Shown: positions 19,041-30,890 of the stretch, in pieces
Numbering within the stretch: position 1 is the first letter of the stretch
Layout of the letters: the number at the start of each line of letters is the position of its first letter
NCBI RefSeq assembly: GCF_037392515.1
Contig: NC_090280.1
Coordinates: 58,336,004-58,400,003, forward strand
DNA length: 64,000 nucleotides
Origin: Haliotis asinina
Lineage: Eukaryota; Mollusca; Gastropoda; Lepetellida; Haliotidae
Reading direction: 5' to 3'
The notes under the pieces: generated by a model
Told to the model about the DNA's origin: nothing
Database searches by the model: none
What the model saw: the letters and a program-made list of their open reading frames with translations, nothing else
Program-made: the position numbers and the translations under genes

Positions 19041-22000
19041 TCAAGAACCCACTTCCAGCATCCAGACCCCTGCTGTATTCAGCCCATTATTCTCAAGTCG
19101 ACTTTGCTCTGGCAGTTCATATTCAGCCAGTTTTGTTAGCTGTGATTTCATTTGGTGATTTTTAAACATCAGCCTGCCTGGGTCGCCAATCAGAACACAT
19201 GTACCAGCCTTCAGATAATGACTCAACCAATCACTGATGCAGCTTACAAACTCACTGTCATAGAACATATCTCCAAGAATAATAACATCCCATTGGTTGC
19301 AGACTGAGCCAATCAGATTCCTGGAATCAACAGTAATGTCACAGAGGTTCACATCTGCATTCAGCTTGGCTGCCACTGTTGCAGCTGAAATGATAGACAG
19401 TGTACCCTCATTATAATGCCATTCTGGTTATAACACCAACATGTTAACAAAGCCTCTAGTTATGATGCCAACATCTCTACAAAGTTCTTAGTAATAATAC
19501 TATTTTTTTAAATGCCATTACTTTTATGCCAACATGTTTGTAATTCCCCAGTTATAATGACAACGGTTTAAAAATGTCAATAGTTATAATGCCAACATGT
19601 CAACAATGGCCCTAGTTACAGTGCCAACATGGCTATAATGCCAACCCATTTATAATGTCATCAGTTTGATAATGTTCCTAGTTATAATATGATCATTGTC
19701 ATAATGCCAACCTTGGTATAATGCTCCTGGTTATAAAGTCAACATGGTTACAATGTCACATGTATGGGTTACCATGGCAAGAGTACCTAATGAGGGTGAG
19801 CTACAATGCATACAGACATCCACTTATTTCCATAATTTTTTAAATGGATCAATACAAAATTGAAAATGAATCCAAAGTAAATACTGAATTGTGTGAATAC
19901 AATCTGTTTGTCTCAACAGCTCCTTGATTTTCAGATTTAGTTCGAAACCTGCATATACCTGCGTCAGTGCAATCAGTACCCACTTTCTTAACATTTACGT
20001 ACCTGCATCAGTCTGATTGATCGCCTCTGTCTTGACCCTCATGCACCTGCATCAATGTCACTGGTCACCACTTTCTGGGCTCTCACATACCTGCATCAAT
20101 GTCACTGGCCACCACTTTCTGGACTTGCACGTACCTGCATCAATGTCATTGGCCACCACTTTCTGGGTACTCACGTACGTGCATCAATGTCATTGGTCAC
20201 ACTTTCTAGACTCTCACATACCTGCATCAGTGTCATTGGCCACCACTTTCTAGGCTCTCACGTACCTGCATCAATGTCATTGGCCACCACTTTCTGGACT
20301 TTCACGTACCTGCATCAATGTCATCGGCCACCACTTTCTGGGTACTCACGTACCTGCATCAATGTCATTGGCCACCACTTTCTTGGCGCCACACTGAGCA
20401 GCAGCAATGGCTGAAGCCCCACATCCTGACCCAACATCCAGAACTGTTCTCTGTCGGAACTTATCACGGTTGTCCAGAATGTACCTGCAGGTGTTATCTT
20501 TGGTTAAGCTAATTTACTACATTAAGAATGCCCCCCGCCCAACATTTTTTTTTTTTCGTATCTTTTACCGTGTCAGACATCATCCACAACTTGGCTGAAG
20601 GCACAATAATGGCATGCTTGTCTCGTCCATCTCCAAATGCTAACGGTAACGCCTCTAGCATTCAAGAGAGCCGCATTAGGCTTATACTAACAGCAAAATG
20701 TAATGCAATATATGGGAGGCAACATTGTATGTGCAGGTGCAAAATATATTTTACACCTGCAATAATACTTTCATATCAAAATATCCTAAAGAGCATTTCA
20801 GGATTTTGGCTGTCTTTGTATACAGAATCTTAATCTATGACTGATACTTTTTCTGGAAATAAAGATTTGTGAGCTTGAAAGAGACAATATCTCTGATGTA
20901 CATTTTGAATAATCTGACTAACAAGAAATATTTCCCTGAACTAATCTCAATTAATAAATTAAATTAAAATTTATTTTGGGTGGTATTCATATGAAACCTT
21001 GGAAGAGTTACTTCCCTTGACAGGGGTCATCCATTGTTGTTTCAGTATGGAGGCAATGTGTTTGAATAATTTGGTAGGAAAACTGTGCCCCATGGTGTTT
21101 TATGGAGCTATGTGATATGTTCATATCAGGAATATGGAAATATATGAACATGTAATTAAGGCCAGGGGTTTACAAGACTCAAATTCCTGCATCCTTAATA
21201 CGCATAAAAATTGACAACAGACGCAATGACAGTAGATTTACGCATCCACAGTGGCACAGAATATGTCTAAATATGTAAAAATGTACAAATACCACGTTAG
21301 TGATTAGTTTGTACGAATGTGGACTGCAAAGGTTCAGGAAAAGAATGAGGACACTTACACTAAGGTAACAATTCACACAGATACCCCAGCAGAAAACAGA
21401 AACAGTTCCAAGCTGACCCATAATTTTGTACCCTTAATGATAAACAGGCAGGGAAACAACAAGTAACATTTTCCTCATCTCTTGGCATGACATTGCTGAA
21501 TAATGAGACCCTCACCTTCCATCACCAATCAGTCTACATGATCAGATATATTCTTGGTCCTACACTCACCCCAACAAACTACACACTTCTCTGCACCATT
21601 ACTTCTCGCAACTCTTATAATGCCAGCAAGAAACCTTAAAACTATTAATTAGGAGTCCCTGGAACCCCTGTGTTAGTGAGTTGAGGTGAAGCAATGTCTA
21701 CCTTAACTTTAATACATTCTTAAACAGACACGATATTTTAGAAACAAATACCTTGTCACTGCCTGGCCTCCTGGCCAGAAGAAGGCCCAGAAGGGATCCA
21801 CAAAGGGAGAATTATCTCCCCTGCTATGCCAGAGTTCACACTGTCTCGTCACTAGGTGTAGTTGTATCTCTGGAGTCAGGTGATCTCTAGTAAGCTCTGT
21901 ATGTTTCATGATCTCAGCTTTCATGCTGCTTTCGAAGAGTAAAGATTGACTATCTTGGTCATTGCACAGAGTTTTTGATTGGTTGTTGGAGCCATTTCCT

Positions 22001-22269
22001 GGCTGGTTGTTGGATACACTTGACGATTGGCTGTTGGAGACACTTCCTGATTTGTTGCTTGAGAAATTTTGTGATTGTCTGAAAGTGGCACTTCCTGATT
22101 GGCATTTGGAACTGTTTTGGGATTGTCTGTTAACTTTTACAGTCTGGCTATTTAAGAAGTTGCATGAAACTATAGGGCTTATATGGCCAGTGCTTGCTGA
22201 TGCTACAGCATTTGTTATTTGGCTGTAGTGTGCACAAAGTCTTCGGATGACCATTTCTTTCTCTTGTAC
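19041..22269 (-). CDS. ETFBKMT: Electron transfer flavoprotein beta-subunit lysine methyltransferase (METTL20 family), 325 aa, 3 coding exons
   Basis: Coding exons are 22254-21752 (this exon begins after an acceptor at 22270), 20484-20354 and 19384-19041. Phases agree (ACAAG|G and GCAG|CT). In vertebrates the enzyme trimethylates lysines of mitochondrial ETF-beta. The first residues (MVIRRLCAHYSQ) are basic with no acidic residue, which fits a mitochondrial presequence and decides the start. Residues 38-105 are a Ser/Asn/Gln-rich insert encoded by a 24-bp tandem repeat. The conserved region has HLTPEIQLHL, WPGGQAVTR, motif I LDVGSGCG (183-190), ANDID (206-210), GDMFYD (249-254) and IGDPGR (277-282), all matching the human protein. 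At least one 5' non-coding exon is implied by the acceptor ahead of the ATG. Identity is firm; the insert is unusual for the family. Confidence 0.92.
19408..19765. repeat. Degenerate ttataatgccaac minisatellite in ETFBKMT intron 2
   Basis: The word (g/t)ttataatgccaacat recurs about ten times with variable spacing. It is heavily diverged and distinct from the 44-bp array closer to the exon. Confidence 0.65.
20001..20395 (-). repeat. 44-bp minisatellite made of copies of the ETFBKMT exon 2 / intron 2 junction
   Basis: Read on the minus strand, each unit contains GTGGCCAATGACATTGATGC then AG|GTACGTGAG, i.e. the last ~28 bases of coding exon 2 plus its donor site. On the plus strand the word acctgcatca (or a close variant) starts at 20001, 20045, 20089, 20133, 20177, 20220, 20264, 20308 and 20352, giving spacing of 44 (once 43). 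The 20352 copy is the genuine junction and the other eight lie in the intron, with copies furthest from the exon most diverged. Another worn unit may begin near 19955. Confidence 0.93.
20485..21751 (-). other. ETFBKMT intron 1
   Basis: It lies between the donor after ACAAG and the acceptor CCTGCAG. Other than a T-run near 20548 I recognise no repeat or gene in it. Confidence 0.6.
21977..22144 (-). repeat. 24-bp coding minisatellite inside ETFBKMT exon 1
   Basis: Seven consecutive 24-base units on the plus strand begin gattggttgttgg, ggctggttgttgg, gattggctgttgg, gatttgttgcttg, gattgtctgaaag, gattggcatttgg and gattgtctgtt. Because 24 is a multiple of three, they encode an 8-residue repeat (SGSVSNSQ, SSSVSNNQ, PGNGSNNQ, SKTLCNDQ) without breaking the frame. 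Confidence 0.88.
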
Positions 22270-27642: not shown

Positions 27643-30600
27643 CCCCACATACTCCAGAATATCAAAGGTGTATGAATGAAAAGGGCAAAAGAGTGTCACA
27701 TACTCCAGAATATGAAAGGTGTATCAGTGAAAACATACAAAAGGCTGTCACATACTCCAGAATATCAAAGGTGTCTCCAGTGTTGGCTCAAGAGAGGGTT
27801 TTGGAGTGTTTTGACTCATCAAATTCAGTGAGGACCCCTTCTATTTTACATCTGCCCATCTATTTAACATTGGAGGGGGTCCAGAAACATTATTTTCATC
27901 AATTTGGACCCACTCAAAATTTCACCCAGATCTAACACTGTGTCTCAATAAAAACAAACGAAATACGGACACATACTCCAGTATACCATAGGTGACTCAA
28001 TGAAAACAAACCAAAGACTGTTATATACTCCAGAATATCAAATCTTTTTCAATGAAAACAAGCAAAAGACTACAAAAACAAGCAAACGACTGGTATATAG
28101 GTCCGAATACCATATGAAAGGTGTTTCAATGAAAACAAGCAAAAGACTACAAAACAAGCAAACGACTGACATATAGGTCAGAATACCATATGCAAGTGAC
28201 TCAGTGAAAACAAACCAAAGATTGTCATGTTCTCCAGAATATCAAAGGTGTTTCAATGAAAACAAGCAAAAGACTACAAAACATGTAAACGACTGACATA
28301 TAGGTCAGAATACCATATGCATGTGACTCAATGAAAAGAAACCAAAGATTGTCATGTACTCCAGAAAATCAAAGGTGTCTCAATGAAAACAAACAAAAGA
28401 CTGCCACATACTCCAGAATATCAAAGGTGTATGAATGAAAAGGGCAAAAGAGTGTCACATACTCCAGAATATGAAAGGTGTATCAGTGAAAACATACAAA
28501 AGGCTGTCACATACTCCAGAATATCAAAGGTGTCTCCAGTGTTGGCTCAAGAGAGGGTTTTGGAGTGTTTTGACTCATCAAATTCAGTGAGGACCCCTTC
28601 TATTTTACATCTGCCCATCTATTTAACATTGGAGGGGGTCCAGAAACATTATTTTCATCAATTTGGACCCACTCAAAATTTCACCCAGATCTAACACTGT
28701 GTCTCAATAAAAACAAACGAAATACGGACACATACTCCAGTATACCATAGGTGACTCAATGAAAACAAACCAAAGACTGTTATATACTCCAGAATATCAA
28801 ATCTTTTTCAATGAAAACAAGCAAAAGACTACAAAAACAAGCAAACGACTGGTATATAGGTCCGAATACCATATGAAAGGTGTTTCAATGAAAACAAGCA
28901 AAAGACTACAAAACAAGCAAACGACTGACATATAGGTCAGAATACCATATGCAAGTGACTCAGTGAAAACAAACCAAAGATTGTCATGTTCTCCAGAATA
29001 TCAAAGGTGTTTCAATGAAAACAAGCAAAAGACTACAAAACATGTAAACGACTGACATATAGGTCAGAATACCATATGCATGTGACTCAATGAAAAGAAA
29101 CCAAAGATTGTCATGTACTCCAGAAAATCAAAGGTGTCTCAATGAAAACAAACAAAAGACTGCCACATACTCCAGAATATCAAAGGTGTATGAATGAAAA
29201 GGGCAAAAGAGTGTCACATACTCCAGAATATGAAAGGTGTATCAGTGAAAACATACAAAAGGCTGTCACATACTCCAGAATATCAAAGGTGTCTCCAGTG
29301 TTGGCTCAAGAGAGGGTTTTGGAGTGTTTTGACTCATCAAATTCAGTGAGGACCCCTTCTATTTTACATCTGCCCATCTATTTAACATTGGAGGGGGTCC
29401 AGAAACATTATTTTCATCAATTTGGACCCACTCAAAATTTCACCCAGATCTAACACTGTGTCTCAATAAAAACAAACGAAATACGGACACATACTCCAGT
29501 ATACCATAGGTGACTCAATGAAAACAAACCAAAGACTGTTATATACTCCAGAATATCAAATCTTTTTCAATGAAAACAAGCAAAAGACTACAAAAACAAG
29601 CAAACGACTGGTATATAGGTCCGAATACCATATGAAAGGTGTTTCAATGAAAACAAGCAAAAGACTACAAAACAAGCAAACGACTGACATATAGGTCAGA
29701 ATACCATATGCAAGTGACTCAGTGAAAACAAACCAAAGATTGTCATGTTCTCCAGAATATCAAAGGTGTTTCAATGAAAACAAGCAAAAGACTACAAAAC
29801 ATGTAAACGACTGACATATAGGTCAGAATACCATATGCATGTGACTCAATGAAAAGAAACCAAAGATTGTCATGTACTCCAGAAAATCAAAGGTGTCTCA
29901 ATGAAAACAAACAAAAGACTGCCACATACTCCAGAATATCAAAGGTGTATGAATGAAAAGGGCAAAAGAGTGTCACATACTCCAGAATATGAAAGGTGTA
30001 TCAGTGAAAACATACAAAAGGCTGTCACATACTCCAGAATATCAAAGGTGTCTCCAGTGTTGGCTCAAGAGAGGGTTTTGGAGTGTTTTGACTCATCAAA
30101 TTCAGTGAGGACCCCTTCTATTTTACATCTGCCCATCTATTTAACATTGGAGGGGGTCCAGAAACATTATTTTCATCAATTTGGACCCACTCAAAATTTC
30201 ACCCAGATCTAACACTGTGTCTCAATAAAAACAAACGAAATACGGACACATACTCCAGTATACCATAGGTGACTCAATGAAAACAAACCAAAGACTGTTA
30301 TATACTCCAGAATATCAAATCTTTTTCAATGAAAACAAGCAAAAGACTACAAAAACAAGCAAACGACTGGTATATAGGTCCGAATACCATATGAAAGGTG
30401 TTTCAATGAAGACAAGCAAAAGACTACAAAACAAGCAAACGACTGACATATAGGTCAGAATACCATATGCAAGTGACTCAGTGAAAACAAACCAAAGATT
30501 GTCATGTTCTCCAGAATATCAAAGGTGTTTCAATGAAAACAAGCAAAAGACTACAAAACATGTAAACGACTGACATATAGGTCAGAATACCATATGCATG

Positions 30601-30805
30601 TGACTCAATGAAAAGAAACCAAAGATTGTCATGTACTCCAGAAAATCAAAGGTGTCTCAATGAAAACAAACAAAAGACTGCCACATACTCCAGAATATCA
30701 AAGTTCTGCCTTAAGACAGGTAAAAGAGAACCCCGTACTCCAGAATATCAAAAGCATCTCCCTTAAGACAGGTAAAGTCCGTCCCATACTCCAGCATATC
30801 AAACT
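27643..30805 (+). repeat. Higher-order tandem array, ~4 copies of a 759-bp unit
   Basis: Identical segments recur exactly 759 bases apart (e.g. the MITE start at 27778, 28537, 29296 and 30055). The copies look identical base for base except for rare changes such as gaagacaagc near 30409. Each unit is itself built from roughly a dozen diverged ~45-50-base subunits (catactccagaatatcaaag then gtgtctcaatgaaaacaa) plus one 163-bp MITE. The array trails off into two shorter subunits at about 30704-30805. Repeated 103-codon open frames across the MITE are by-products. Confidence 0.95.
27778..27940 (+). mobile_element. hAT-like MITE, 163 bp, embedded in the 759-bp unit (first of four copies)
   Basis: It begins CAGTGTTGG and ends AACACTG, giving short inverted ends of hAT type, and is flanked by TGTCTC on both sides as a probable duplication. 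The other array copies are at 28537-28699, 29296-29458 and 30055-30217. A diverged independent copy lies at 49933-50092 in inverse orientation, which shows that the element is mobile and separate from the satellite. Confidence 0.8.
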
Positions 30806-30831
30806 CTCTCTCTCTCTCTCGATCTCCCTCA

Positions 30832-30890
<59 letters not shown>
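30806..30890 (+). repeat. (CT)n(AC)n compound microsatellite
   Basis: Runs of ct, slightly interrupted, lead into an uninterrupted run of ac. It directly follows the higher-order array. Confidence 0.95.

Follow-up and report, generated by a model that had tools for sequence, protein, structure and literature searches.

Minisatellite-like duplications of exon-intron boundaries have been described in amphioxus under the name "mirage" (PMC3087553), with cases in Adh3 and in the globins BflGb6 and BflGb9 (PMC3087553), to which TnC and PGBD5 were added (PMC3902484). According to the portions of these two reports that were available, the units measure 10-72 bp in Adh3, 150-160 bp in the globins, and 60 and 108 bp in PGBD5, and both boundary types are involved; many units retain AG/GT, distal units escape homogenisation, and regular splicing is reported as undisturbed (PMC3087553, PMC3902484). 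In humans, the 31-bp VNTR of CBS, c.1444_1467+7(16_21), combines 24 bases of exon with 7 of intron and occurs in 16-21 copies with substitutions among units, while ins68 of the same gene is a duplicated intron 7/exon 8 junction at which the more distal site is favoured (PMC2630376, available excerpts). Models of intron gain by tandem duplication of AG/GT proto-splice sites, which are named in part of PMC3087553, likewise duplicate a splice junction. In abalone, the accessible part of one gene report describes a 27-bp intron minisatellite whose number varies among individuals, and does not describe it as junction-spanning. Open-licence full texts yielded no account of junction arrays in molluscs, abalone included, and our literature searches for classical duplicated-donor experiments returned none.

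The array analysed here, in an intron of a Haliotis asinina gene, resembles the amphioxus mirages, as these appear in the available portions of their reports, in being a boundary-spanning minisatellite with AG/GT units, among them a copy that forms the genuine boundary of a coding exon. It differs from them in belonging to another phylum, in its donor-side position and 44-bp unit, and in being known from sequence alone, since splicing and length instability were examined in amphioxus, whereas the Haliotis array is the sequence of one assembly. The human 31-bp VNTR, compared through part of its published description only, also has a unit that spans an exon-intron junction; however, gene and sequence are unrelated, there is no ground for supposing common descent, and the CBS repeat varies in people, has more copies and a shorter intron share. 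The single locus is one more case of a repeat kind already described. We assign a probability of roughly 0.85 to the reading that it is a donor-side mirage, that is, a minisatellite seeded by the junction itself and tolerated while the exon-adjacent donor is used.

The host gene and its second exon

The window, i.e., the whole stretch of 64,000 nucleotides that was analysed, corresponds to C1:58336004-58400003 of a 1.14-Gb genome in 159 contigs. The host gene lies on the minus strand and is a putative ETFBKMT by its resemblance to the human protein. From a presumed ATG at 22254, the coding part of exon 1 (21752-22254) extends to the donor AAG/GTATTT in a phase that fits exon 2 (20354-20484; 131 nt), which bears a methyltransferase motif (...VLDVGSGCGASAIAAAQCGAKKVVANDIDA) and whose last 31 nt make up the exon-derived portion of each repeat. 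Intron 2 (19385-20353; 969 nt) has the array at its start, and is followed, after the acceptor TTTCAG/CTGCAACA, by exon 3 (19041-19384), which includes the stop codon; the joined frame of exons 1-3 gives 325 aa.

A class I methyltransferase fold signature was detected in exons 2 and 3 when joined (Pfam PrmA, 2e-12; Methyltransf_16, 7.7e-9), and exon 2 alone yielded PrmA with an E-value of 2.7e-8. The top PDB match of the host protein was 3grz, a ribosomal protein L11 methyltransferase (E 9.6e-9), the alignment of which passes the exon 2/3 junction ungapped, its single gap lying well beyond the junction. Since the PrmA-type/3grz match is continuous over this junction, the true exon end is fixed at 20354/20353. 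ETFBKMT was absent among the PDB matches of the host protein, and a pattern for its prokaryotic relatives, scanned over genome contigs, matched 85 stretches, none of which was confirmed.

Further tandem repeats were observed in the window. Exon 1 contains a coding minisatellite (21972-22110; 24-bp unit, 5.6 copies) that encodes a Q/S/N-rich stretch after the N-terminus, and the 3' half of intron 2 (19440-19790) holds words resembling GTTGGCATTATAACTAG in a degenerate array (TRF 19546-19631, period 32). At 27646-30890 there is a big tandem block of 52-, 76- and 127-bp units, in which the TRF rows recur every 759 bp (28323, 29082, 29841, 30600). No Rfam family reached its gathering score over the window.

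Anatomy and history of the array

TRF delimited the array at 19997-20387, with a period of 44, 8.9 copies, 84% matches and a score of 530. In each 44-base unit, 31 bases come from exon 2 and 13 from the intron, the exon part being conserved methyltransferase sequence, which bears out the preliminary description in its proposal that the units were built from the gene's own exon-intron junction. Because this exon part is old coding sequence, copying went from exon to intron.

The authentic junction (copy 0, 20341-20384, minus strand) has its first intron base, the true donor, at 20353. Beyond it there are eight clear copies in the intron, then a ninth that has decayed. Taking as coordinate the G of GT, i.e., the first intron base (the positions proposed earlier were one base off, marking the T), donors lie at 20309 in copy 1 (20297-20340), 20265 in copy 2 (20253-20296), 20221 in copy 3 (20209-20252), 20178 in copy 4 (20166-20208; 43 nt), 20134 in copy 5 (20122-20165), 20090 in copy 6 (20078-20121), 20046 in copy 7 (20034-20077), where the site is weakened to GTGCAT, and 20002 in copy 8 (19990-20033). 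The ninth copy (19946-19989), which lies outside the span first described, retains GCAG/GT at 19958. As had been noted, seven of the eight clear copies carry GCAG/GT and one, at 20178, GCAC/GT; likewise, the statement that several copies keep a complete donor word agrees with our count, GTACGTGAG or GTATGTGAG being intact in 4/8. With the ninth copy included, GT is kept in 9/9 and the preceding AG in 8/9. A query with the 395-base array against the genome, in a search that skips very common words, returned a single match, the array itself.

The earlier suggestion that the cleanest copy is the one next to the exon did not hold. Ungapped identities to copy 0, taken outward, run 38, 41, 38, 40, 38, 39, 36, 31 and 27 of 44. 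Against the consensus the ninth copy likewise scores 27/44 (ungapped), a value equalled in 1/300 shuffles of the rest of the intron. A simple decay outward from copy 0 was thus rejected, identity dropping in the distal copies only, and the distal end of the array is old and worn. A higher-order block of four units, absent from the preliminary description, was also recovered by TRF (175 bp, 2.2 copies). Among copies 0-7, those four apart are the most alike (mean 40.0, vs 37.8-38.3 at other distances; P 0.03 with permuted copy order), copies 5 and 6 matching copies 1 and 2, respectively, at 42/44; moreover, GAGTACC is common to copies 0 and 4, and with copy 4 the second 175-bp block begins. This likeness of copies four apart indicates that, after growth by single units, a block containing the junction copy was duplicated at least once.

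In this context, a 44-bp segment over the exon 2/intron 2 junction would have been tandemly duplicated in a minisatellite-rich genome, with slippage or unequal exchange as the probable mechanism, and have seeded a minisatellite that was presumably enlarged unit by unit and by the duplication of a four-unit block, with the exon copy held under coding constraint. The array itself would be selectively near neutral and most likely does nothing in particular. In the GCAG/GT columns of the intronic copies, 1/48 positions are mismatched, vs 37/304 elsewhere (P 0.02, with copies that are not independent); over the 9-base donor window, the figures are 5/72 vs 33/280 (P 0.17, with the same dependence among copies). 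Selection on the donor core cannot be claimed from these figures, since the copies are related by descent and the motif had been picked with the data in view; the slight retention of the GCAG/GT core would fit some constraint.

The presence of an AG/GT-like junction in every unit also recalls the duplication models of intron gain, and the available part of PMC3087553 proposes such a role for mirages, so that the array might be a step toward a new intron or exon through recruitment of the AG/GT of a copy. We hold this to be the least probable of the readings considered, and a very improbable one: no clear pyrimidine tract is seen ahead of the AG in the units, the acceptor of intron 2 is a separate site (19385), and, unlike intron gain by AG/GT duplication, the array multiplies the donor of an existing intron, with no sign of a new one.

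Pairing strength and coding consequence of the downstream donors

Donor strength was estimated as the duplex energy with the 5' end of U1. The true donor at 20353 scored -8.7 kcal/mol, a value reached by 0.55% of the 3823 minus-strand GTs in the window, and 6/8 intronic donors matched or beat it (-8.7 to -9.5 kcal/mol), the strongest pairing of the row being that of 20002. Weaker pairing was found at 20046 (-6.8), 20178 (-2.3) and in the ninth copy (-7.2 kcal/mol).

Past the true donor, the reading frame meets a TGA at 20348-20346, two codons beyond 20353, just as the preliminary description had it; its prediction that a downstream donor would shorten the protein is also upheld, since any of the nine downstream donors would add GT and then a stop after DIDA, giving 213 aa and not 325. 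If donor 20309 is used, the stop would fall 36 nt short of the final exon junction, a distance at which the 50-55-nt rule of mammals might let the transcript evade decay; with the more remote donors it should not. As all nine truncate, the first donor alone can give the full-length protein, and the use of that donor in at least some transcripts is therefore close to required. On coding sense alone, the exon-adjacent, first-transcribed donor would be the one mainly used, the others being at most minor and mostly unproductive.

These same properties could be read as regulation, with the array offering competing donors that tune the productive splicing of ETFBKMT, such that more copies would give more truncated product. 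That the U1 pairing of most intronic donors is no weaker than that of the true donor, and that every downstream donor would truncate the protein, speaks for such a device; a 2001 title by Lievers, in which the CBS 31-bp VNTR is reportedly tied to reduced CBS activity, was counted on the same side. The amphioxus cases, however, left regular splicing undisturbed, according to the available portions of their reports (PMC3087553, PMC3902484), and the recurrence of the same anatomy at unrelated genes, detailed below, is more in line with a by-product than with a device. We consider regulated competition between donors, and with it the length-variable control of productive splicing raised in the preliminary description, very unlikely.

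The decoys might also serve as U1 sites in some other capacity, aiding the upstream donor or shielding the intron against premature cleavage and polyadenylation. U1 suppresses early polyadenylation, and a row of sites with strong U1 complementarity speaks for such a role. Against it, the sign of selection is no stronger than the P of 0.02 on the core, nothing in the arrangement is gene-specific, and an intron of 969 nt is short; this role appears less probable still than regulated competition.

Another candidate, in which the decoys would be hidden or shaped by RNA structure, found no support: the predicted exposure of the true donor is 0.29, vs 0.14-0.58 for the decoys, so that the true donor is not more exposed. 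Folding of the RNA of exon 2 plus the array gave a structure no stabler than those of shuffled sequences (z +1.0, 60 shuffles).

Recurrence of junction arrays in the genome

Arrays of the same kind were sought with a pattern of three CAG/GTRNGT sites spaced 29-59 bases from one another. Genome-wide it gave 1897+1944 = 3841 rows, and the reversed control 1600+1886 = 3486; with the reversed pattern nearly as frequent, donor-like arrays are overall hardly over-represented by row count. The first 100 of the 3841 rows, which extend along C1 from its start to 50.9 Mb, were clustered by judgement into 27 arrays, each of which was assessed by the sequence upstream of its first donor and by Pfam, alone or with the next exon.

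Among these rows, 7/27 arrays adjoin an exon end with a Pfam E-value of 2e-4 or lower, four of the seven exceeding Pfam's own cut-off. The exons match tetraspanin (L037), Ig (L038), ABC (L043), MFS (L046 and L050), GH31 (L047) and phosphodiesterase (L054) families. Five further arrays are probable, two with weak Pfam support (L035, E 0.025; L036, E 0.0052) and three that are exon-like by eye, without a Pfam match (L056, L057 and L061). The remaining 15/27 among the rows examined were not counted as exon-anchored; L039, L059, L060 and a 21-residue piece beside L048 had no Pfam match, and for the other 11 this assignment was made from reading frames and by eye. Searching the PDB with the exons of L050 and L035 yielded nothing at E-values up to 0.1. 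In the same 50.9-Mb stretch, two control 9-mers matched for composition produced 12 and 2 arrays (2467 and 668 rows overall), so that about half of the donor arrays are at control level and the excess is close to the number of exon-anchored ones.

Several of these arrays have features of their own. L038 (C1:3247400-3254200, minus strand) shows an Ig-like exon end followed by a 32-bp donor array of 41.7 copies, the longest that is exon-anchored. In L057 (C1:46771500-46778100, minus strand), a signal-peptide-like first exon (MNTFKALLLLVAFMWQ) precedes a 44-bp donor array of 12.8 copies, after which comes a long HT-rich minisatellite. L047 and L048 (C1:17751700-17762100, minus strand) lie next to GH31-like exons at a distance of about 4 kb from each other, the former including the donor and the latter beginning around 25 bases past it.

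The coding consequences differ from one array to another. Donors beyond the first in-frame stop were present in 9/11 anchored arrays checked, the exceptions being L035 and L036, so the truncation argument fails in some arrays. The period is a multiple of 3 in 3/12 exon-anchored arrays, and such a scarcity is expected if the copies are spliced out.

A survey of exons by family returned 125 matches for the myosin head and 20 for ABC_tran. Egg_lysin (Pfam), a family that marks abalones and their close relatives, had six matches with E of 0.001 or lower, each above the cut-off and located on C14, and none in 14 control genomes, which fits an abalone-like genome; the cluster (C14:26671878-26918244) has its matches on one strand, some with stops.

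On the acceptor side, the pattern consisted of three tract-plus-CAGG sites and matched 1741+1833 rows, and 1102+1892 when reversed. At least 16 acceptor arrays occur in the same stretch of C1 among the rows examined (clustered by judgement), two of them also present in the donor list. Exon-like flanks were seen in 0/11 of those read by eye (11 of the 16, with about 260-330 bases each), a comparison in which the acceptor pattern differs in information from the donor pattern and the flanks may be too short. The contrast hints at a donor/acceptor asymmetry of junction arrays. One acceptor-like array, L063 (C1:29539500-29539760), lies beside a stretch resembling a retrotransposon reverse transcriptase.

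By crude scaling, the 12 exon-anchored arrays (7 firm and 5 probable) in 50.9 Mb would correspond to about 270 in 1143 Mb. We tentatively raise the possibility, which we think somewhat more doubtful than probable, that donor-side mirages are widespread in this mollusc genome, perhaps in some hundreds of genes, that they are much rarer at acceptors, and that the first-transcribed, exon-adjacent donor beats up to about 40 near-identical rivals. Set against this generalisation are the amphioxus mirages, which include both boundary types in the available part of their description (PMC3087553), and human CBS ins68, for which the consulted excerpt reports the more distal site as favoured (PMC2630376).

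The added weight of the Haliotis data lies in the recurrence of exon-end donor arrays with differing genes, units, copy numbers and spacings. At such arrays, splice-aware read mapping and gene models may err. If the wider reading is true, evolution would have repeatedly run the classical experiment of tandem 5' splice site duplication in this genome, and ordinary RNA reads over the series of arrays could show how distance, order and number govern the choice of 5' splice site.
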